Shown: piece by piece, positions 1 to 64,000 of the stretch
How the letters are laid out: each line of letters starts with the position of its first letter
How positions within the stretch are numbered: the first letter of the stretch is position 1
DNA from: Chlorella sorokiniana
Lineage: Eukaryota > Chlorophyta > Trebouxiophyceae > Chlorellales > Chlorellaceae
Assembly (NCBI GenBank): GCA_025917655.1
Contig: CP084614.1
Location: 2,232,001 to 2,296,000 of the forward strand
DNA: 64,000 bases
Reading direction: 5' to 3'
Position numbers and translations under genes: made by a program
The notes under the pieces: model-generated
The model's input: only the letters and a program-made list of their open reading frames with translations
Database searches by the model: none
What the model was told of the DNA's origin: nothing

Positions 1-233
1 CGACAGGGGAACATGCAGCAACCTTAGAACATCGATTCAGTGGCAGGGCAGAAGGTTGAACCATAACCTCATTCTTCGAGTGCCTATTCAAAAGTGGAGG
101 CTCACAGACATTGTAAAGTAGTTACCCAAGAGGCCCATGCGGGAGGGGGGCAGTATATAAACAAAAACGCATGTACAGCTGCAAGCATGACGACAAGGTT
201 CAGCAAGGATTGCTAGTTCTTCTGTTTTTTGCT

Positions 234-51078: not shown

Positions 51079-51780
51079 CAATTTTTTTGACTTGTCTTCA
51101 CTGTTACGAAGGCCAGGCGCTGGGGACACACAGCATTGCATCCCACTAGCTCTGGTACAACATCTAAGCATCGCAGACGGGCGGGCGGGCAGGGTTGCAA
51201 GCACCGGCTCAAGCCGGGGATCGGGCGCAGAGGGCGGTAGGGGAGCGGAGGGCGCCTGGGAGCACACCCAAAGCGCCACCAGGGAAGCAACAGACACAGG
51301 AAGGCGGGGAGGGGGGCGCCGGTTACTCACGTGGGCACCATCGCTCGCCACTGCAGGCCGCCAGCACGGGTCAGAATGGGGATGGAAAGGGGGAAGGCAG
51401 GGCCCCGCATCCGAGTGGCAGCAGGCCGCTGACAGCCATGCGCCGCGGCCCGCCCGGCACAGTAGCCGAGAGGCGGCCAGACGGGCGGGAGGAAACGACA
51501 CAGGGCAGGCAGGGGACACTGAAGCCGCACGGAGCGGGTCAGACAGGATAGGGGCATAAAGGAACAACTGGGAAGGAACGAGATGGGGACGAGGGGGGGC
51601 CGCCCGCAGGCCCGGCAGGGCGGGCGGGGCACACAGGGCCGGGGTCAGGCGCTAGGTATCAGGGCGTGGGGGAGGCCGCAATTGCAGACGGCCAGATTCT
51701 GTGAAAAAGAAGGGGTGCGTGGTGGAAATGCGGGCACGCCAAGCGGCAGGTGCCAGGTCCAGGGCATGGAAACCAATTTG
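51079..51780 (-). mobile_element. 5'-truncated non-LTR retrotransposon copy A
   Basis: Minus strand. It starts with about 100 bases encoding the element's C-terminus (FHALDLAPAAW...THPFFFTESGRLQLRPP, ending RPDT-stop), then a ~600-base 3' untranslated region (CTGTTACAGAGACC block, GCATCCCACTAGCTC, CGGCCAGACGGGCGG) and a tail of CAAGT-like units. It is about 90% like copy B by eye over the shared part. Confidence 0.75.
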
Positions 51781-51784
51781 ACTT

Positions 51785-54700
51785 GACTTGACTGTTACAG
51801 AGACCAGGCGCGGTAACGCGCTGGGGACACACAGCAGTGCATCCCACTAGCTCCGGTACAACATCTAAGCATCGCAGGCGGGCGGGCGGGCAGGGTGTAA
51901 GCACCGGAGGAAGCCGGGGATCGGCCGCAGAGGGCGGTGGGGGAGCGGAGGGCGCCTGGGAGCACACCCAAAGCACTGCCAGCGAGGCAGCAGACACAGG
52001 AAGGCGGGGAGGCAGGGCGCCGGTTGCGCATGTGGGCACCATCGCACGCCACCGCAGGGCTGCCAGCACGGGTCAGAACGGGGATAGCACGGGGGAAGGT
52101 GGGGCCCCGCGGCAAGGCAGCAGCAGGCCGCCGACAGCCATGCGCCGCGGCCCGCCCGGCACAGTAGCCGAGAGGCGGCCAGACGGGCGGCCGGAAACGA
52201 CACAGGGCAGCCAGGGGACACTGAAGCGTCATGCAGCGGGTCAGGCGGGAGAGCAGCAGAGGGGACCAACTGGGAAGGAACGAGATGGGGACGAGGGGGC
52301 CGCCCCGCAGGCCCGGCAGGGCGGGCGGGGCACACAGGCCCTGGGATCAGGCGCTAGGCATCAGGGAGTGGGGGAGGCCGCAACTGCAGGCGGCCATTTT
52401 CTGTGAAAAAGAAGGGGTGTGTGGCGGAGATGCGGCCAAGCCAAGCGGCAGGCGCCAGGTCCAGGGCATGAAAATCAGCAAGGAGGGACCAAAATGCACC
52501 GACCGCCGAGCGGCAGGCGGCGGGGAGGGGGCCTGTGGGGGCTGAGGCAGCGGCGCCGGGGCGGCTGCCGGCTCGCGCGGGGCGGGGGCTCCTGGCTGGC
52601 GGCGGCCGAAGCCGCCACGCCAGGGGGCTCAGGAGGCTGCGAGGCGCTCCGCCGCCACGTGGCGCTGTGCAAACGCCGGGAGGAGGCCAAGAGCGGGTGG
52701 CGCACCAGGCTGACGTAAGCCGCCTGCGTGGGCGCTGCCGCCACAGCCCGCTCAACAGCGAGCGCGCGCCCGAGGGTGCCCACCCCTGCTGCCAGGAAGT
52801 CGGTGAAGGCGTGGTCCAGGCCGGCGGGGTGGGCTGCTGAGACCAGGAAGGGGTTGCCCCACAGGGGCAGGGAGAGGCACCAGGGGCCGGGCCGGAGCTG
52901 CTGGGGCGCCAGGTCGGCTGGGGGTGGCAAGGAGGCGAGGGCTGCCCGCAGGCGGAGGAGGGGCGGCGGCAGGTGGGCGAGCGACGCCGGCAGGGGCTGC
53001 TGGATGGGCCAGAACAGCAGGCCTGCTGGCGGCAGGCCGTCAAGCAGCTCGTACGCCAGCGCCACCCAGGGCGGGAGCCGCTCCTCCGGAGGGGCCGGTG
53101 CGTCGGGAGGCGGGGGGGGGCGGCGGCCGGGAGCAGCGGAAGGGGAGGCAAGGGAGGTGGCGGGTCGGGGGAGGGGCCGCCGCCCCTGCGAGGTGTGTGG
53201 GGAGGAGGAGGGGAGGTGAGGAGGCGGGCCGCACAGCTGGCATGGCGGGCCGAGATGTGGAGGAGCCAGGGCAGCGACCCAAAGCCGCCGTCAGCTGGCC
53301 GCCCAGGCAGGACGTCGCGGTGCAGGCCGGCAAAGCGCCGCTGCGTGGCGGAGGGGCCCTGGCTGCGATCCACAAGGCGCGCCGTGATGCGTGCAAGGCG
53401 GTCAGCGATGGCGGCGGGGGTGGCCCAGGAACTCGGAGTGGTAGAGCAGCTTCGGCACGCCATAGCCGGCGCTGGCAAAGGCCCGCCCGAAGACGGAGAG
53501 GCCAAGGCGGGCGATGCGGGCGTACACGGTCTCCACCCGGGCCAGTAGGGAGGCCCAGGTGGCGGCGGTGGCGGCTGCGGGCGGTTCGCCGTTGGCAAAG
53601 GGGATGCCGAGGGCGGTGACGGAGGAGACGACGCGCAGGCCGCGGCGCGCCGCGGGAGGTGGCAGCGCCGCTTCCACGTCGGCGGGCACGGCGCCGGGGG
53701 AGCAGCTGCGTTTTGAGGGGTTGAGGCGCTGCCCGGTGGCGTCGCCAAAGGTGTCCATGGCGCCCAGGAAGGCGGGCAGCTGGGCTGGAGAGTCCAGCAG
53801 GATGTGCGCGTCGTCAGCATAGCAGCCGGTGGTGGTGGTGAGGGGGAGCCGGGCAGGAGGTCGCGCAGGCCAACGCCACGCTGGCGCAGGAAGGCAAGCA
53901 GGGCCTGGGCGACAAACAGGTAGAGCAGCGGGGCCAGCGGGCAGCCCTGGCGCACGCCTGCCAGGAAGTCGGCGGGGAGGAGATGAAGCCGCTGACCAGG
54001 GCTCGGGCGCGGGTGCCGTGGAGGAGGGGGCGGACCAGGGAGAGGAAGCCCTCGCCGACGCCCAGGTCCGCCATGATGCGGAAGAGGAAGGAGCGGTCGA
54101 GGGTGTCGTAGGCCTTGCGGAAGTCGCAGAAGGCCGCCAGCGCCCAGCGGCCTGCACGGCGGAGGAGGTGGGGGAGGAGCTGCAGGGCCATGATGTTGTC
54201 GCCGATGCGGCGGCCGGGCACAAAGGCAACCTGCTCTGGGTCGATGACGGAGGGGAGGCAGGGCCCAAGGCGGCGGGCCAGCACCAGCGCATAGAGGCGG
54301 TAGTCGGCGCCGAGCAGGGTGATGGGGCGGTAGCAGGCGGGGTCAGCGCGGTCGCCAGCCTTGAAGAGGAAGGTGATGAGCCCCTCATGGAATGAGCGCG
54401 GCAGCTGGCCGGTGGAGGCAATGGCGGTGAAGAGGCGGGAGAAGAGGGGGCAAAGGCGGTGCGGAAGTGGCGGTACAGGTCGGGGGGGACGCCATCCAGG
54501 CCAGGCGACTTGCCCGGCTTGACGCGCCGCATGGCGCGCAGCACCTCCTCGGCAGAGAAGGCAGCCTCGCCCAGGAAGCTGCCTGCTGCTCGGTGAGGCG
54601 GCGGCCGCTGCGCACCGCTGCGCTGACCTCATCCTGGGCGGCGGCAGAGGTGGTGGGCGCTGCAGAAATGGCCGCGGCTGCCTGCACCGCCACCGCTGCG

Positions 54701-55210
54701 GCTGAGGGGCCGGTGTGCAGGGCGCCGCCGGAGCCGCGCAGCGCAGGGATGGTGGTAACATGCCGCGCAGGCCGCAGCTGCCGGGAGGTGGAGGGGTTGG
54801 GCCGCTCGTCGCAATGCAGCCAGGTGTAGCGGCGCAACTGGGTGGCCTCGGCGGCGCCAGCCGAGTGGGCTGCCCGCCGCCACGCCTCGCGCGCAGCAAC
54901 AAGCTCCGGCAGGGCGCCGTCGTCCCCAGCCTCCCAGCGCTGAGCAGCTGCCTCGAGGGTGGCAAGGGCGGTGGCGGCGCGGGGGCAAGCTCGCGGCTGG
55001 CGCGGTGCAGGCGGCGGCAGAGGATGTAGAGGGCGCGCTGGAACCTGGGCCACCACTGGATGAAGGCAGCAGGGTCCTCCGGGGGCGCCAAGGCAGCCAG
55101 CCAGTCCCGCAGCTGCGAGGACAGAGCGGGGCAGGAGAGGAAGCCAAGGCGGAGGCGGCGGCGCTGGCGGCCGACGCCCGGGGGCTGGGTGCCCAGGATG
55201 GAGAGGGAAA
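51785..55210 (-). mobile_element. Non-LTR (LINE-like) retrotransposon copy B with reverse transcriptase
   Basis: About 3.4 kb, minus strand: a reverse-transcriptase region (52354-55180), a ~570-base 3' untranslated region shared with copies A and C, and a CAAGT-type 3' tail at 51774-51795. No LTRs are visible. No endonuclease domain is seen before the 5' end, where it abuts the tail of copy C, so it is also 5'-truncated. Confidence 0.8.
52354..55180 (-). pseudogene. LINE-like reverse transcriptase, frame broken
   Basis: RT motifs occur in order on the minus strand: LRAMRRVKPGKSPGLDGVPP (RT-0), ADPACYRPITLLGADYRLYA-LVLARRLG (RT-1/2), FVPGRRIGDNI, LAAFCDFRKAYDTLDRSFLF (motif A), RQGCPLAPLLYLFVAQALL (motif B), TTTGCYADDAHILLDS (motif C, catalytic YADD), LNPSKRSC and VTALGIPFANG. 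A C-terminal part follows with RFAGLHRDVLPGRPADGGFG-SLPWLLHISARHASC and ends LPDA-stop. Upstream is a spacer with LRRYTWLHCDERPN. At least three frame changes separate motifs A, B and C, so as written it cannot make one protein. Some breaks sit at G/C runs and may be sequence error rather than decay. Confidence 0.82.
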
Positions 55211-55700
55211 CCAATTTTGACTTGACTTGGCTTGACTTGACTTGGCTGTTACAGAGACCAGGCGCGGTAACGCGCTGGGGACACACAGCAGTGCATCCCA
55301 CTAGCTCCGGTACAACATCTAAGCATCGCAGGCGGGCGGGCGGGCAGGGTTGTAGGCACCGGCTCAAGCCGGGGATCGGGCGCAGAGGGCGGTAGGGGAG
55401 CGGAGGGCGCCTGGGAGCACACCCAAAGCGCCGCCAGCGAAGCAGCAGACACAGGAAGGCGGGGAGGCAGGGCGCCGGTTACGCATGCGGGCACCATCGC
55501 ACGCCACCGCAGGGCCGCCAGCACGGGTCAGAATGGGGATGGAAAGGGGGAAGTAGGGCCCCGCAGCAGGGCGGCCGCAGGCCGCTGACAGCTAAGCGGC
55601 GCAACCCGCCCGGCACAGTAGCCGAGAGGCGGCCAGACGGGCGGGCGGAAACGACACAGGGCAGCCAGGGGACACTGAAGCGTCATGCAGCGGGTCAGAC
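55211..55700 (-). mobile_element. 5'-truncated retrotransposon copy C (3' untranslated region only)
   Basis: Repeats the 3' region of copies A and B (CTGTTACAGAGACCAGGCGC, GCATCCCACTAGCTC, CGGCCAGACGGGCGG), ending at lower coordinates with the longest CAAGT/CCAAG tail, about 55215-55247. No coding part remains. Confidence 0.7.
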
Positions 55701-56530
55701 AGGGATGGCCAGGGGAAGGGACCGTGCGAGGCACGCCGCCACCAAAAGCGAGAGCCAAGCCCGCCCGGCACAGGAGCCGGGAGGCGGCCAGACAGGCGGG
55801 TTGGGCGCCGCACACGAGGCGGGGGCGAGAGGAGCCCGGCAGATTGTAAGCGTGGGGCAGGGGACTGGGTGTCAAGAGGGATAAAACAGGGGAAAGCCTG
55901 GGAAGGGTAGGGTGCTGGCTGGGCGGACCGCTGCCGCCTGGTTGCCGCTGGCAGGGTGCCGCCAGGCTGCCGCAGCAAGGCAGGTTGGGGCTGCGCCCAA
56001 CAGCCACCATGCACGACAGCCCACCAGTCAGCGAGACGGTCCGAAGGAGGGGAGGTTGGCTGCCAGGGGCCGATCTGGGGATGGGGAGGAGGAGCACGTG
56101 CTGCGCGGCTGGAGCTGGCTCAGTCCGCGTGGAAAAAGCCGGTCGCCGCGGCAAGCTGCGAAATACACGGGCCAGAGCCGGAGCTGGCCCGCGGGCTGCC
56201 AGCCATCCCGCAAAGGGCCGCGCTGCACGCCCGGCCCACGCGGGGGCCCGCCCGCGCTCCAGAAGCCGCCTCGGGGTACGTAGTCGCCGAATCGCGGGGT
56301 CTGCACCCGGCACCCCCGCCCTGCGCCGAGGCAGCCACGCGATGTCCGCGGCCACTCGTTCTGGGGCCCCCAATCCCAGAGTGTTGCCCCAAGAGGGCCC
56401 CTGAGGGGGGGAAGGGCCGCACGGGGCCTGCAGCGACAGGCGACTCTAGCAAAGATGGATGAACGCAATTTTTTTGATGTCGGTGAAATTGCTGTTCGCA
56501 ATATATAAATTACAATTTTTTCGCATCTCG
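55701..56530. other. Unassigned GC-rich stretch with a terminal AT-rich island
   Basis: It partly echoes the retrotransposon 3' region near 55765-55800 (GGAGGCGGCCAGACAGGCGG). No recognisable protein or RNA. The last 70 bases (56466-56522) are an AT-rich island just before the inverted duplication. Confidence 0.35.
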
Positions 56531-56584
56531 GCAAATGCGAAACGTCGGGGGTCATCCCCGGGTCGTGACGGTGTAGCACGAACT

Positions 56585-56685
56585 AGCTGCAGGCCGCAGG
56601 TTCGATTCCTGCTGGAGGCACGGCTATGTATATTCAGAGCTGCCCCCTGCCTTCATAGCTCAGGGGTTAGAGCGGCAGCCTCGTA
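56585..56685 (+). tRNA. Circularly permuted tRNA-Thr (CGU): 3' half upstream of 5' half
   Basis: The 3' half comes first: A38 at 56585, anticodon-stem GCTGC (56586-56590), variable AGGCC, T-arm GCAGG-TTCGATT-CCTGC (56596-56612), acceptor TGGAGGC and A73 (56620). After a 28-base spacer comes the 5' half: acceptor GCCTTCA (56649-56655), TA, D-arm GCTC-AGGGGTTA-GAGC, G26, anticodon stem GCAGC, then loop bases CTCGTA to 56685. Joined 5'-to-3' half, this is a 73-base cloverleaf with all stems paired (one U-G in the acceptor) and loop CUCGUAA, anticodon CGU. The 5' half resembles plant tRNA-Thr. No T-arm follows the 5' half, so this is not an ordinary intron-containing gene. Expression and processing are not shown. 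Confidence 0.8.
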
Positions 56686-56691
56686 TAACGC

Positions 56692-56695
56692 TTTT
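56692..56695 (+). terminator. RNA polymerase III-type T-run
   Basis: TTTT seven bases after the 5' half, with another TTTT at about 56706-56709. None occurs inside the permuted gene, as expected for a Pol III unit that places the B box before the A box. The minus copy has the same run at 61006-61009. Confidence 0.5.
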
Positions 56696-58291
56696 GCTGA
56701 GCTAATTTTGCTGTATCAAGGTGAGGGGGCCGCCCGGGCCGCCGCAAGCTGACGCGCAAAACCTGCAGAGTCGCGAGAACCGTGGCGGATTGCTGGCGAA
56801 AGGAATCAAGCCAGGGCTGCTGCGTGGCGGGCGCCCGCGCCCGCCGTGCGTGCAACCCGCTCAGCACAGCGGCGGGTCGGACCAGAAGGAGGTGCCAGGG
56901 GTCGTAGGGGCCGCCTTGGGGGCCACCTAGGGGCACCCTCTGGCAACTTGGTGTGCTGCCGCACCAAGTGCAAGACTGCCATCTGAAGCTCGCGGCACGT
57001 TGTGGAGGCAGTAGCAGTGGAAAATGGTTGCATGGGGGTGCCCTGAGTGGTCTGCAGGAACAGGCAGGCTTTCGGGCTTCCCAGCTGCAAGCCCCGCTGA
57101 TCACCTGCACTCACGCACTCGTATGTGCCAGTTCTTACAAAGGCATTTCAACCATGTGCATGTAAACCAGAACTTTGTTCAGCCAGCGCTTGACCGCGGC
57201 CCTGCGTTATAGCCGCCAGTGTCGCTGCTGTTGCCGCCAAGGATGTTGTTGATGCTGCTATGCCCGCTGCACCGGGCCTGTTAGCCCGGGCAGTCGACCA
57301 TCACTGCTGCACCTGTTTGCGCCTGGCCTGCGGCTGCCGCAGGGGCTGCTGGCATTACATGCTGCCGGTCAAGAGCGATGCCGCTGCCGCTGCCCTACGC
57401 CGCCTGTGCCAGGTGTGCGGGGGTGCAGCAGCGGCAAGTCTTGAGCCGCCCTGCCTGCTCCCCCTCCTCAAACAGGTGCCCGTCAACACCCATCTGCGGC
57501 CCGCCGTCTGCACCCCAGCGCTGCGCCGACGTGACATGCGGGGGTTGAGGGCGCCGAAAGGTGCACTTTTTGGGCAATCTGCATTTAAACGCCCCCGCTC
57601 TTGCTGCAATATTATTCACACGTGTCAAACGTCATTAAATCAGAGCGGTCAGCGGCCAGAGCGCGAGGGAGGCGTGGGCAGGTTGTGGGCTGGCCCTGGG
57701 GGTGAGGGCGAGCCTGCGCCCGTTGCTGTGGTCTGAGGATTGCTTGTCATGATCGTGGGAAAAGCAGGAGGCCCAATGCAGCTGGCTTGTCGACAGTTCT
57801 GATCCCTGCTCGATTGGCGCCCCATTCTGCCTTCCCTTGCTGCCCCATCGCTCATGGAAGCACTGCATAGAGAGCTGGAGCTGGCGGAGCTGGCCCCAGG
57901 GCTTGCCCGCCAGTAAGGGGAGCGGCAGGGCGGCGGCGAGGGCGGCGAGCGCTGTGGCGGCACCGCCAGCTGCATGCAGCCATTCTGCCTACCAGTTCGA
58001 CCTGCCGCAGCCTCTGCTCTGGGGTGCCAGCTTTGGTAGCGCCCCCGTTTATGCAGTTGATGTCTTAGAATGCCCCAGCCATGCAACAGACTTTGCGACA
58101 GAGGAATGCACACCGAACAGCGCACCGCTGTTCGGATGCTCGTACTGGCAGAGCAGCCAGCACACGTCGCCCCAGCTGCCAGTCCTTTTGCTTGAGGTCT
58201 GCAGCGGCCCTGAGCGGCCCTGCAGCAGCCCTGCAGCGCAAATGCGAAACGTCGGGGTCATCCCCGGAGTCGTGACGGTGTAGCACGAACT

Positions 58292-58326
58292 AGCTGCAGG
58301 CCGCAGGTTAGAGTGGCAGCCTCGTA
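58292..58326 (+). pseudogene. Internal-deletion derivative of the permuted tRNA
   Basis: The leader and the start of the 3' half are intact (AGCTGCAGGCCGCAGG), but GGTT then joins directly to AGAGTGGCAGCCTCGTA of the 5' half. The T-loop, acceptor strands, spacer and most of the D-arm are missing. The joint is at GGTT, which is present in both the T-arm and D-loop of the intact copies. Confidence 0.75.
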
Positions 58327-59849: not shown

Positions 59850-61870
59850 GCAGAATGGCTGCATGAATGCAGCTGGCGGTGCTGCTGCTGCGCCCGCCGC
59901 CCTCGCCGCCGCCCTGCGCTCCGCCCAACTGGCGAGCAAGCCCTGGGGCCAGCTCCGCCAGCTCCAGCTCTCTATGCAGTGCTTCCATGAGCGATGGGGC
60001 AGCAAGGGAAGGCAGAATGGGGCGCCAATCGAGCAGGGATCAGAACTGTCGACAAGCCAGCTGCGTTGGGCCTCCTGCTTTTCCCACGATCATGACAAGC
60101 AATCCTCAGACCACAGCGACGGGCGCAGGCTCGCCCTCACCCCCAGGGCCAGCCCACAACCTGCCCACGCCTCCCTCGCGCTCTGGCCGCTGACCGCTCT
60201 GATTTTGAACTTTTGAAACGTGAATAATATTGCAGCAAGAGCGGGGGCGTTTAAATGCAGATTGCCCAAAAAGTGCACCTTTCGGCGCCCTCAACCCCCG
60301 CATGTCACGTCGGCGCAGCGCTGGGGTGCAGACGGCGGGGCCGCAGATGGGTGTTGACGAGCACCTGTTTGGGGAGGGGAGCAGGCAGGGCGGCCGGCTT
60401 TGCTCAAGACTTGCCGCTGCTGCACCCCAGCACACCTGGCACAGGCGGCGTAGGGCGGCGGCAGCGGCATCGCTCTTGACCGGCAGCATGTAATGCCGGC
60501 AGCCCCTGCGGCAGCCGCAGGCCAGGCGCAAACAGGTGCAGCAGTGATGGTTGACTGCCCGGGCTAACAGGCCCGGTGCAGCGGGCATAGCAGCATCAAC
60601 AACATCCTTGGCGGCAACAGCAGCGACTTCGGCGGCTACGACTGGCGCAGCCAAGTGCTGGCTGAACAAAGTTCTGGTTTACATGCACATGGTTGAAATG
60701 CCATTGTAAAGAACTGGTACATACGAGTGCGTGAGTGCAGGTGATCAGCGGCGCTTGCAGCTGGGAAGCCCGAAAGCCTGCCTGTTCCTGCAGACCACTC
60801 AGGGCACCCCCATGCAACCATTTTCCACTGCTACTGCCTCCACAACGTGCCGCGAGCTTCAGATGGCAGTCTTGCAGCCTCAACTTGGTGCGGCAGCACA
60901 CCAAGTTGCCAGAGGGTGCCCCTAGGTGGCCCCCAAGGCGGCCCCTACGACCCCTGGCACCTCCTTCTGGTCCGACTCCTCCCTGGGCAGCAAAATTAGC
61001 TCAGCAAAAGCGTTATACGAGGCTGCCGCTCTAACCCCTGAGCTATGAAGGCAGGGGGCAGCTCTGAATATACATAGCCGTGCCTCCAGCAGGAATCGAA
61101 CCTGCGGCCTGCAGCTAGTTCGTGCTACACCGTCACGACTCCGGGGATGACCCCGACGTTTCGCATTTGCGCTGCAGGGCTGCTGCAGGGCCGCTCAGGG
61201 CCGCTGCAGACCTCAAGCAAAAGGACTGGCAGCTGGGGCGACGTGTGCTGGCTGCTCTGCCAGTACAAGCATCCGAACAGCGGTGCGCTGTTCGGTGTGC
61301 ATTCCTCTGTCGCAAAGTCTGTTGCACGGCTGGGGCATTTCAAGACATCAACTGCATAAACGAATAAGCGCTACCAAAGCAGGCACCCCAGAGGAGAGGC
61401 TGCGGCAGGTCGATCTGGTAGGCAGAATGGCTGCATGCAGCTGGCGGTGCCGCCACAGCGCTCGCCGCCCTTGCTGCCGCCCGGCCGCTCTCCCAACCGG
61501 CGGGCGAGCCAGCTCCGCCAGCTCCAGCTCCTTTTGCAGTGCTACCATGAGCGATGGGGCAGCAAGGGAAGGCAGAAAGGCGCATATGTCAAGCGGGGAT
61601 CGGAGTTGTCGACAAGCCAGCTGCATTGGGCCTCCTGCTTTTTCCGCGATCATGACAAGCAATCCTCAGACCACAGCAACGGTCGCAGGCTCGCCCTCAC
61701 CCCCAGGGCCAGCCCACAACCTGCCCACGCCTCCCTCGCGCTCTGGCCGCTGACCGCTCTGATTTTGAACTTTTGAAACGTGAATAATATTGCAGCAAGA
61801 GGGGGAACGTTCAAATGCAGATTGCCCAACAAGTGCACCTCCGGGCGCCCTCAAGCCCCCGCATGTCATG
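59850..61870 (-). repeat. Right arm of the large inverted duplication
   Basis: Read on the minus strand from 61870 it gives block Q (to about 61105), the permuted tRNA, then block P and part of Q again (about 60975-59850). Order and orientation mirror the left arm, with point differences and small indels. The arms are separated by about 1.5 kb. Confidence 0.85.
61016..61116 (-). tRNA. Second copy of the permuted tRNA-Thr (CGU)
   Basis: Reverse-strand copy in the right arm. The 3' half is 61116 down to 61081 (A73 at 61081) and the 5' half is 61052 down to 61016, with the same 28-base spacer. All 101 bases are identical to the plus-strand copy by direct comparison, while the flanking arms differ at scattered positions. 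The leader hairpin and downstream T-run are also kept. Confidence 0.78.
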
Positions 61871-62239
61871 CCGGCGCAGCGGCCGCAACTGGCCGCACAG
61901 ACACGCGGATGGCACTGTGTTCACCACACGGCCAAGCAGCAGGCGCTGGGTTGCCGCATGCATCTGCAGCCGCTTCGCGCTGCCATTGCTGGAGCCTAGG
62001 GAGAGCACCTTGGAGCGCCCGGTGCTGCGGCTCGTGCAGCGCGCGCGGTGCGCGCCTGTCCGCTTGCAGTCACGTGCTGCGCGGCACAAGAGGGCACAAT
62101 AAGCAGGGAGGCAGGGCGGGACGCCCAGCATACACAATTCTTTCCGTGCCTACCCTTGGCTGCGGCCCACGCTTACAGATATGCAACAAAACTACCAGCA
62201 ACTTGAGGAGCTGCGCCTGCCAGCACCGCATTAGCTTAC
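61871..62239. other. Unassigned stretch
   Basis: Just beyond the right arm. No recognisable gene, RNA or repeat; it probably includes intron or 3' sequence of the minus-strand gene at 62240-64000. Confidence 0.3.
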
Positions 62240-64000
62240 CTCTCAGCATGCCACGCACCGCCGCATTGAGGTTGAGGCCACCGGGCCCGCGGCGGCGCCG
62301 CCGCCTGCAGCACCTCCGCCGCTTCCTCGACAACCTTGGTGCGCGGCTGGCTGGCGACTGCAATAAGAAAAAAAGGGCAGGGTGCGGTGGGATGTGTGTC
62401 AGCCGGGGCTGTGTGACCAGGTGTCGGGCTGTGCACGCCTACACACACCAGTCCGCTGACAGGTCGCACAAAACCCGTTACTCTGCACAACCAGTGCACG
62501 CACTGCCTGCCGCCGCAGCCTCGGCACTGCGTGGCGCCCGGCCGCCGCGCCCATGGGTGAGGCGCTGCCAGAGGCGCCGCCGCTCCCGCCAGCAGTCTGC
62601 TGGCACCATGCCCTCTGTCATGGCGCTGCCGCCCACCGTCCGCACAGCCAGCCCTGCTCCGTGTCTCCCAGCGGCCCGGCGGGCAGTGCTGCCCGGGTGC
62701 CTGCCCGCTGCTTGGCACCCTAGGGCAACTGCCACGCCTCAGGCAGCGCAGCCTGTGCCAGCATCGTGCCGGCCAGGGTGGCGCCGTTGCCGACGCTCTT
62801 CAGCGCCAGGGCTTCCATGGGGTGGAGGTGAGCCATCTCTGCCGACTGTGCGCACGTAGGCAGCAACACATGGCGCAGGTTGTCGTGGTGAGCCTTGGCG
62901 GCAGCGCAGAGCGCCTCTGGCGTGGCAGTGCTGCCGCCAAGGCTCACGACGACAACCTGCGCAATGTGCCGCTGCCTACTCATGCACAGAGTGGGCCCGC
63001 CTCCACCCCATGGAAGCCCAGGCGCTTCAGCAGTGCTGCGAGCAGCTGCCCTGCTGCGGCTCGCTGAGCTGCCCCCACCGCTCGACCGCGGCGGGCTCCC
63101 CGCTCTCCATAGCCTCTAGGAACAGCTGCGCCTGCATGAGCGGCGCCAGGCTGGCATGGAACAGGTCCAGGCGCCGCACCTCGCTGGCTGCCGCGAGCCG
63201 GCGGATGGGCGGCTTGCTCATGGCCTACACAAAGCCGATGGGGCTGCGCTCCCAAGGGTGCGGCCGCGGCACCTGCACAGCCATCCGCTGCGTGGGGGCT
63301 GCGCCACAGCCAGCTGTTGCGGTAGGCTGGCGGCCTCCACGGGGACGATGAGGCCCTGCGCTGCCAGCTGCGGAAGGGCAGCGAGCAGTGCCGACGTTAC
63401 TAGGCGCAGCCCTGCTGCCTCGTCAGGCTTGCCAACGGGGCCAGGGGCCTTTGCGAGCACCTGCGAGACGAGGTTTGGTGCAAGTGCAGGCGAGCGGTGC
63501 GTGCCAGTACCAGGCGCACGGGTGCCGCTGCCGCCGCCGCACGTGTGCAGCAGCAACCCACACGGAAGAGAATGGTCACGGTTTCGTTCTTCGCCAGCCC
63601 CCACCGGCATGGTGACGCCATGGCGCCGCCGGTCTGGCTCCATGTCAATGGGGCCGTGCGGCGACGGCCACCAGCTGCTGCCCCAGTGCGGCCGCCTGTG
63701 GCACGGCGTCACCGTGCTAGGAGAGGTGCTGGCGGAGAACGAAACAGTGACCTTTCTCTTCCGTGTGGGTTGCTGCTGCACACGTGCTGCGGCGGCAGCG
63801 GCCCCATGACATGGAGCCAGCCGGGGTGTCAGGAACGAATGTGGTGCGGCTGCCCGGCACGCCTGCGTCCTCCAGCACCAGTCCGTGGCTGTCGGGGCTG
63901 GCGCTGTACACCAGGCAGACGGTGATCAGCAGTTCGTTGCGCGCCTGCCGTCGCGCTAGCGCTGCAGTGATGTGCTCCAGCACGCCGCCTCGCCCGTGGC
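62240..64000 (-). CDS. Unknown protein, exons of a partial gene running off the window
   Basis: Not recognised. Minus-strand pieces with protein-like composition, from the window edge inward: LEHITAALARRQARNELLIT-VCLVYSASPDSHGLVLEDAG (about 63860-63980), LAPNLVSQVLAKAPGPVGKP-DEAAGLRLVTSALLAALPQL (about 63360-63485), MSKPPIRRLAAASEVRRLDL-FHASLAPLMQAQLFLEAMES (about 63100-63221), LLAALLKRLGFHGVEAG, AKAHHDNLRHVLLPTCAQSA-EMAHLHPMEALALKSVGNGA (about 62775-62915), VPADCWRERRRLWQRLTHGR, and TKVVEEAAEVLQAAA with GPGGLNLNAAVRGMLR (about 62245-62345). The helical, Ala/Leu-rich character suggests an armadillo-like or other helical protein, but that is a guess. Two fold-back repeats lie inside the gene. 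Start and exon joints are unresolved. Confidence 0.35.
62800..63026. repeat. Fold-back palindrome, ~100-base arms
   Basis: Left arm about 62800-62906, right arm about 62925-63026, loop about 18 bases. Pairs include CTTCCATGGGGTGGAGG with CCTCCACCCCATGGAAG, GCGCAGGTTGTCGTGGTGAG with CTCACGACGACAACCTGCGC, and CCTTGGCGGCAGC with GCTGCCGCCAAGG (the right arm has GTGCTGCCGCCAAGG). It would form a long imperfect hairpin in RNA or single-stranded DNA. Confidence 0.85.
63522..63823. repeat. Second inverted repeat, ~100-base arms around a ~80-base centre
   Basis: Left arm about 63522-63622, right arm about 63700-63802. ACGTGTGCAGCAGCAACCCA at 63541 pairs with TGGGTTGCTGCTGCACACGT near 63767, and CACGGAAGAGAATGGTCACG with the complement of GTGACCTTTCTCTTCCGTG. 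An extra block, GGCTCCATGTCAATGGGG (63635-63652), has an inverted partner CCCCATGACATGGAGCC (about 63802-63818) outside the arm, so the layout is more complex than one palindrome. Confidence 0.75.

Follow-up and report, generated by a model that had tools for sequence, protein, structure and literature searches.

A probable circularly permuted tRNA-Thr(CGU) gene, present as an inverted pair, and further permuted tRNA genes in a green-alga-like nuclear genome

The window, meaning the whole analysed stretch of 64,000 nt (G000:C6:2232001-2296000), contains on its plus strand the two halves of a tRNA-Thr(CGU) in exchanged order, the 3′ half first, followed by a spacer and then the 5′ half. The 3′ half comprises A38, the 3′ strand of the anticodon stem, the variable loop, the T-arm, the 3′ acceptor strand and A73, and encodes no CCA. 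The 5′ half comprises the 5′ acceptor strand, the D-arm, the 5′ strand of the anticodon stem, U33, the anticodon CGU and A37. The spacer links the 3′ and 5′ acceptor ends and is free of any run of four T. This gene is called copy A in the following, and its features are:

56502..56509, plus strand: TATA-like element TATATAAA, beginning 83 nt upstream of the 3′ half
56578..56581, plus strand: leader sequence ACGA, predicted to pair with U33-U36 (56681-56684) in a 4-bp central helix
56585-56685, plus strand: copy A, whole gene
56585..56620, plus strand: 3′ half, tRNA positions 38-73 (reordered ARAGORN call, rotated model R1 at 76 bits, genome search)
56621..56648, plus strand: intervening sequence, 28 nt
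56649..56685, plus strand: 5′ half, tRNA positions 1-37 (reordered ARAGORN call, R1, genome search)
56692..56695, plus strand: first TTTT after the 5′ half, starting 7 nt past the gene
56706-56709, plus strand: second TTTT

The window has a high GC content. Beside the tRNA locus lies a retroelement frame with an RVT_1 reverse transcriptase domain (53817-55478, minus strand), with repeats nearby at 51117-52474 and 55232-55705, and an imperfect palindrome of ~225 bp (79%) is found at 62802-63026.

Placing 56649-56685 ahead of 56585-56620 yields a tRNA of 73 nt, which ARAGORN types as Thr(cgt). The preliminary description had placed permuted halves with a 28-base spacer at 56585-56685 and predicted a complete 73-base cloverleaf on reordering. 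Its coordinates are exact, and the acceptor, D-arm, anticodon-arm and T-arm stems that it listed are all present in the sequence. The acceptor stem consists of seven pairs, one of them G-U, and by eye the reordered tRNA has U8, G15 with C48, GG in the D-loop, U33 and TTC in the T-loop. The mature cloverleaf is near-optimal rather than the minimum, at -30.6 kcal/mol compared with -32.1 kcal/mol for the unconstrained fold. We built a covariance model, R1, from 17 nuclear tRNAs rotated at 37/38. It scores the gene at 76 bits (E 1.2e-21), a value biased upwards because the sequence of copy A is one of the 17 training rows. Ten loci, eight of which contain ordinary tRNAs, were scanned with R1; the highest match outside the Thr gene reaches 29.1 bits and lies at an ordinary gene, and at any scanned locus not counted as permuted the best is 30.6 bits. 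Gene order and reordered structure agree with the earlier reading of a circularly permuted gene and support copy A as a tRNA-Thr(CGU) gene of type II, which is split at 37/38. As judged from the sequence, the exact cut sites would lie there as well.

In native order, ARAGORN calls no tRNA anywhere in the window, and Rfam gives no match in it at the gathering score. An ordinary intron-containing tRNA was rejected, as ARAGORN with introns allowed returns nothing in 56501-56760. Ordinary tandem tRNA genes likewise place a 3′ half ahead of a 5′ half, and adjoining partial copies of such genes could look permuted. Against this stands the absence of ARAGORN calls in the window and in the neighbouring loci L048 and L049, from which we conclude that no complete tRNA gene sits beside the Thr halves. 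An assembly artefact would have the same appearance, and inverted-repeat regions such as the one around this locus can be misassembled. Unrelated permuted genes on the contigs C3, C4 and C10, described below, argue against that origin, and we regard an artefact or partial tandem copies as extremely improbable.

We searched the genome (38.8 Mb, 15 contigs) with the reordered Thr sequence and obtained four alignments, namely both halves of copy A and both halves of a second copy B, all of which stop exactly at position 37 or begin at 38. No near-identical ordinary tRNA-Thr(CGU) was found in this search. The preliminary description had considered that several ordinary genes of the same sequence would turn the halves into relic fragments; genome-wide, the sequence was found in the two permuted copies only, but a divergent ordinary Thr(CGU) gene may exist, because the tRNA inventory is incomplete. 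In the RF00005 search of the genome, which scored 63 out of 450 candidates, at least 64 matches were obtained, and C1-C13 account for 20 of these. We collected 30 ordinary nuclear ARAGORN calls, an incomplete inventory, and none of these is Thr. Two of the calls, both with introns, are by eye probably mistyped: an 'Ile' (L111) resembling Leu(UAA) and a 'SeC' (L117) resembling Arg(UCG). A Thr(UGU) tRNA can in principle read ACG codons, and therefore a single dead Thr(CGU) gene need not be lethal.

Copy B and a relic, copy C, lie downstream of copy A within rearranged surroundings. Neither these nor the further permuted tRNA genes of the genome were part of the preliminary description.

61016-61116, minus strand: copy B, inverted, identical to copy A over 101 bp (3′ half 61081-61116, spacer 61053-61080, 5′ half 61016-61052)
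58292-58326, plus strand: relic C of the Thr gene
56531..56713, plus strand, and 60988..61170, minus strand: 183-bp unit common to A and B
56876..57988, plus strand: first part of segment X, repeated in inverted orientation at 59850-60976 (94.4%), downstream of A and of B
57519..58237, plus strand: last part of segment X, repeated in inverted orientation at 61171-61881 (91%), upstream of C and of B

The relic has kept the outer ends of the gene. Its deletion, with the word GGTT at either end, has removed the acceptor strands together with the greater part of the T-arm and of the D-arm. Between A and B, the 183-bp unit is 98.9% identical by BLAST, with two gaps and no mismatch, and shows seven mismatches in an ungapped MAFFT alignment, all differences lying outside the gene; the leaders of the two units can be told apart by sequence. 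In the flanks, MAFFT counts 39 differences in 1105 sites downstream (A vs B) and 52 in 708 upstream (C vs B), and BLAST 30 in 1137 and 45 in 797 columns, respectively. From the MAFFT counts, 3.6 to 7.4 substitutions are expected in the 101 gene sites, while none is observed. Assuming independent sites and no gene conversion, the chance of zero changes is 0.027 and 0.0005 with the MAFFT counts, or 0.067 and 0.003 with those of BLAST. Selection or gene conversion would explain this identity, the downstream comparison by itself being weak.

These comparisons bear on the possibility that the halves are relics of a formerly working permuted or ordinary tRNA gene that was rearranged and is no longer expressed. 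Decay does occur at the locus, since copy C is deleted and the 90 nt upstream of copy B lack a TATA-like word, although the T run of this copy is present. Yet all 21 cloverleaf pairs of the model are intact in both A and B, the genes are identical while the neighbouring segments diverged, and the genome search found no ordinary near-identical copy. The same layout recurs, moreover, in three other isoacceptors. We therefore consider the relic explanation distinctly improbable.

The boundaries of the 183-bp unit raise another question, that of how the copies arose. Upstream, the unit reaches 54 nt beyond the 3′ half, to a point 29 nt past the first base of the TATA-like element; downstream, it closes shortly after the second T run. 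These limits would suit a unit that had moved as a reverse-transcribed pre-tRNA; B and C would then be retrocopies and only A a gene. The last part of segment X also occurs at C1:2754812-2755543 (82%), and X-like segments on C1 and C2 hold another, mutually similar sequence at the place where the unit sits in C, which fits such an insertion. R1 detects no permuted tRNA in these segments (that of C2 being partial). A decayed Thr unit in them was rejected, the local score being reached by 11 of 500 shuffles for C1, which is marginal, and by 70 of 500 for C2; the two replacement pieces match each other better than any of 500 shuffles. On the other side, A and B share the downstream segment X, so that plain DNA duplication suffices, and a similar Ser(AGA) pair (see below) is a longer DNA duplication that continues 329 nt beyond the gene, for which reason we rejected retroposition as a general cause of the copies. 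For the Thr unit, we judge it unlikely. It concerns the origin of the copies and is compatible with copy A being a permuted gene.

The survey for further permuted genes used five plain B-box words and the 37/38 junction, and its count is accordingly a lower bound. The first word occurs at 83 sites, of which four lie on C14 or C15, two in the Thr copies and three in known Asp and Ala genes, and 39 were scanned with R1; the remaining 35, not scanned individually, fall nearly all in satellite-like clusters. The other four words occur at 44 sites on C1-C13; eight of these fall within ordinary-gene loci, and the other 36 were newly scanned by R1. The reversed words, counted for comparison, occur at 5, 5, 6, 35 and 18 sites. 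The following genes, absent from the R1 training set, are split at the same place as Thr, and ARAGORN accepts each of them once reordered:

C4:985653-985737, minus strand: permuted Arg(UCU), spacer 12, R1 71.5 bits
within C10:1771140-1771320 (L139), minus strand: permuted Ile(UAU), spacer 10, R1 63.0 bits
within G000:C3:925240-925480 (L125), minus strand: permuted Ser(AGA), spacer 36, R1 32.1 bits
within G000:C3:933030-933270 (L126), plus strand: permuted Ser(AGA), spacer 36, R1 32.1 bits

The Ser genes are supported by the reordered ARAGORN calls and their stems, because 32.1 bits is close to the 30.6 bits of a locus that we did not count (L120, C5:1703060-1703370, 137-218, plus strand), in which no anticodon stem could be seen by eye. 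This locus, possibly a decayed permuted tRNA, can form a 7-bp acceptor and a T-arm over a short spacer and has a T8 run after its 5′ part. The two Ser genes form an inverted duplication ~8 kb apart; their alignment reaches the end of the DNA compared on one side and has its breakpoint 31 nt before the gene on the other. For Arg(UCU), the genome search finds the permuted halves only. AGA codons need the anticodon UCU, and therefore this gene is probably in use, which suggests that the cell depends on the half-swapping route. Exact-pattern scans for relatives in collections of viral and of genome contigs gave zero matches each.

Signals for transcription were compared across the six permuted copies. 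All of them have a run of at least four T whose first base lies 3-9 nt past the 5′ half, and their spacers contain no such run. The first such run behind copy A (56692..56695) is probably a pol III terminator, as judged by its position. We counted TATA, TTAAA and ATAAA as TATA-like words, in the 90 nt that precede the 3′ half. In Thr copy A, TATA or ATAAA is found at -80 to -83, in Arg at -71 and -73, and in Ile at -76 (ATAAA only). One Ser copy has such words at -62 and -66 and the other a TTAAA at -38 only; just one copy keeps the TATA word because the duplication breakpoint lies so close to the gene. The comparison set of 30 ordinary nuclear genes, in which six are represented by an upstream sequence shorter than 90 nt, contains eight with a TATA-like word between -20 and -60 and 27 with a T run no more than 40 nt away. 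This pattern is suggestive of TATA-driven transcription of the permuted genes.

Taken further, these positions point to a genome-wide trait, in which at least four isoacceptors (Thr CGU, Arg UCU, Ile UAU and Ser AGA) would be made only or mainly from permuted genes driven by an upstream TATA element, with one promoter-cut copy in each of the Thr and Ser pairs. Since permutation reverses the order of the internal promoter boxes, transcription would under this proposal rest on the upstream TATA-like element. We hold the proposal tentatively, at somewhat less than an even chance; the TTAAA at -38 in the promoter-cut Ser copy makes it less likely. If it is true, the inverted Thr and Ser pairs constitute a natural promoter-deletion test, cleanest for Thr. 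With one copy having a TATA-like element and the other lacking it, the Thr pair makes transcription of permuted genes testable within one cell.

Removal of leader and trailer would take place at the junction between positions 37 and 38. With the cloverleaf forced and leader and trailer left free, the ACGA/UCGU helix of 4 bp is followed by an A37-U-A internal loop and an outer helix of 5 bp; ACU directly precedes A38, giving a 4-bp helix with a 3-nt bulge. The same fold results when only the anticodon stem is forced. In this model the junction resembles a bulge-helix-bulge motif, similar to the hBH form described for green algae in the available text of PMC3978253. In 627 of 2000 cases shuffled sequences form a leader-trailer stem as good or better, so the stem does not stand out by its stability; a junction stem that is not statistically special would suit a relic. 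The word ACGA has a chance of ~0.003 of standing at that leader site, given the leader composition. Left free, the precursor folds differently (-46.6 vs -44.3 kcal/mol with the cloverleaf). Position 32 of Thr faces A at leader position -3, which is not a Watson-Crick pair; in Arg, Ile and Ser, C32 lies opposite a G at this leader position. The Ile leader pairs with 32-37 over 6 bp, and Ser has no such leader helix in its minimum-energy fold. The genome encodes two tRNA-splicing endonuclease domains (PF01974) above the cut-off, with 58.7 and 53.0 bits, on C1 and C9.

Gene order, the intact reordered tRNA, the position of the T run, the lack of another near-identical gene in the genome search, the further permuted genes and the endonuclease domains are the observations on which our preferred reading is based. 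According to it, this is very probably a nuclear tRNA-Thr(CGU) gene of the permuted type II, present twice in opposite orientations and one of several permuted tRNA genes of the alga, and it would be expressed via a spliced circular pre-tRNA. By analogy with known permuted genes, we infer the following course of transcription, cutting, circle formation, trimming and charging. Pol III would produce a single transcript that runs from the leader through the 3′ half, the spacer and the 5′ half into the trailer and stops at the T run. Its tRNA portions would then fold into the cloverleaf, with the spacer bridging the acceptor ends, and the tRNA-splicing endonuclease would cut off leader and trailer at 37/38. 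A ligase would join 37 to 38, generating a circular RNA from which RNase P and tRNase Z would excise the spacer, and CCA would be added after this removal.

Auxenochlorella is a close relative of Chlorella. For strain UTEX 250-A, likewise a green alga, the available text of two reports describes permuted tRNA genes, found because the tRNAscan-SE set was incomplete (PMC12633428, PMC12636532). The preliminary description had mentioned permuted tRNAs in Cyanidioschyzon, some green algae and nucleomorphs. The permuted arrangement, a rare one, is already known from Cyanidioschyzon, prasinophytes, the Bigelowiella nucleomorph and Auxenochlorella, and the Thr gene described here is a further case. 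In the published list, Thr(CGT) of C. merolae is permuted, of type II, and has an intervening sequence of 31 bp (PMC3978253). It shares with the present gene the isoacceptor, the 37/38 junction, a short spacer (31 there, 28 here, within the published range of 1-74 bp), a downstream T stretch and the lack of an encoded CCA and of another intron. It differs in that our gene belongs to a green-alga-like nuclear genome, with two inverted copies and a relic, and in the distance of the TATA-like element, which starts 83 nt upstream here but lies no more than 50 bp away from most permuted genes of C. merolae (PMC3978253). The permuted genes of the prasinophytes Ostreococcus and Micromonas and of the Bigelowiella nucleomorph are, in the available text, all but one of type II with a 37/38 junction, and include Arg(TCT) in O. 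tauri and Ser(AGA) in M. pusilla and B. natans (PMC3978253). Like ours, these are nuclear or nucleomorph genes of the green lineage, and Arg(TCT) and Ser(AGA) are permuted here too. In contrast, the green list as available there contains neither Thr nor Ile (PMC3978253). Within the accessible parts of the open-licence literature, covered for Chlorella, Trebouxiophyceae and Coccomyxa and, from 2015 onwards, for green algae in general, we found reports of permuted tRNAs in green-alga genomes only for Auxenochlorella and chlorarachniophyte nucleomorphs. Standard tRNA finders overlook permuted genes, as ARAGORN and Rfam do in this window, and therefore the tRNA sets of such algae look incomplete.

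Several other tRNA-like sequences were noted elsewhere in the genome. A satellite with a repeat length of 271 bp (L067-L096; 6.1 copies, 96%, in L094) carries the T-arm-like sequence GTGGGTTCGATTCCCAT. It is located mainly at G000:C4:2.29-2.36 Mb and, judged by spacing, also at 1.44 Mb on C5, 0.59 Mb on C10, 1.34 Mb on C11 and 1.43 Mb on C12, and may be centromeric or tRNA-derived. An intact tRNA-Asn (L040, G000:C4:677207-680647) has, ~3 kb away, an inverted copy truncated in the T-arm. Contig C14 (77 kb; 32% GC in a 10-kb piece) contains frames that by eye we take to be mitochondrial nad4 and nad5, and C15 (118 kb) frames that, again by eye, are presumably rbcL, atpA, atpB and a cysA-like gene. 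The genome is eukaryotic, and these frames, taken together with the GC-rich window, are consistent with a green alga similar to Chlorella. Two pieces within nuclear contigs are possible insertions of organelle DNA: one resembles by eye mitochondrial Ser(UGA) (L113, G000:C9:1376650-1376960), and the other, called as Leu(GAG), is similar to a Leu gene of organelles (L131, G000:C8:363750-363990).
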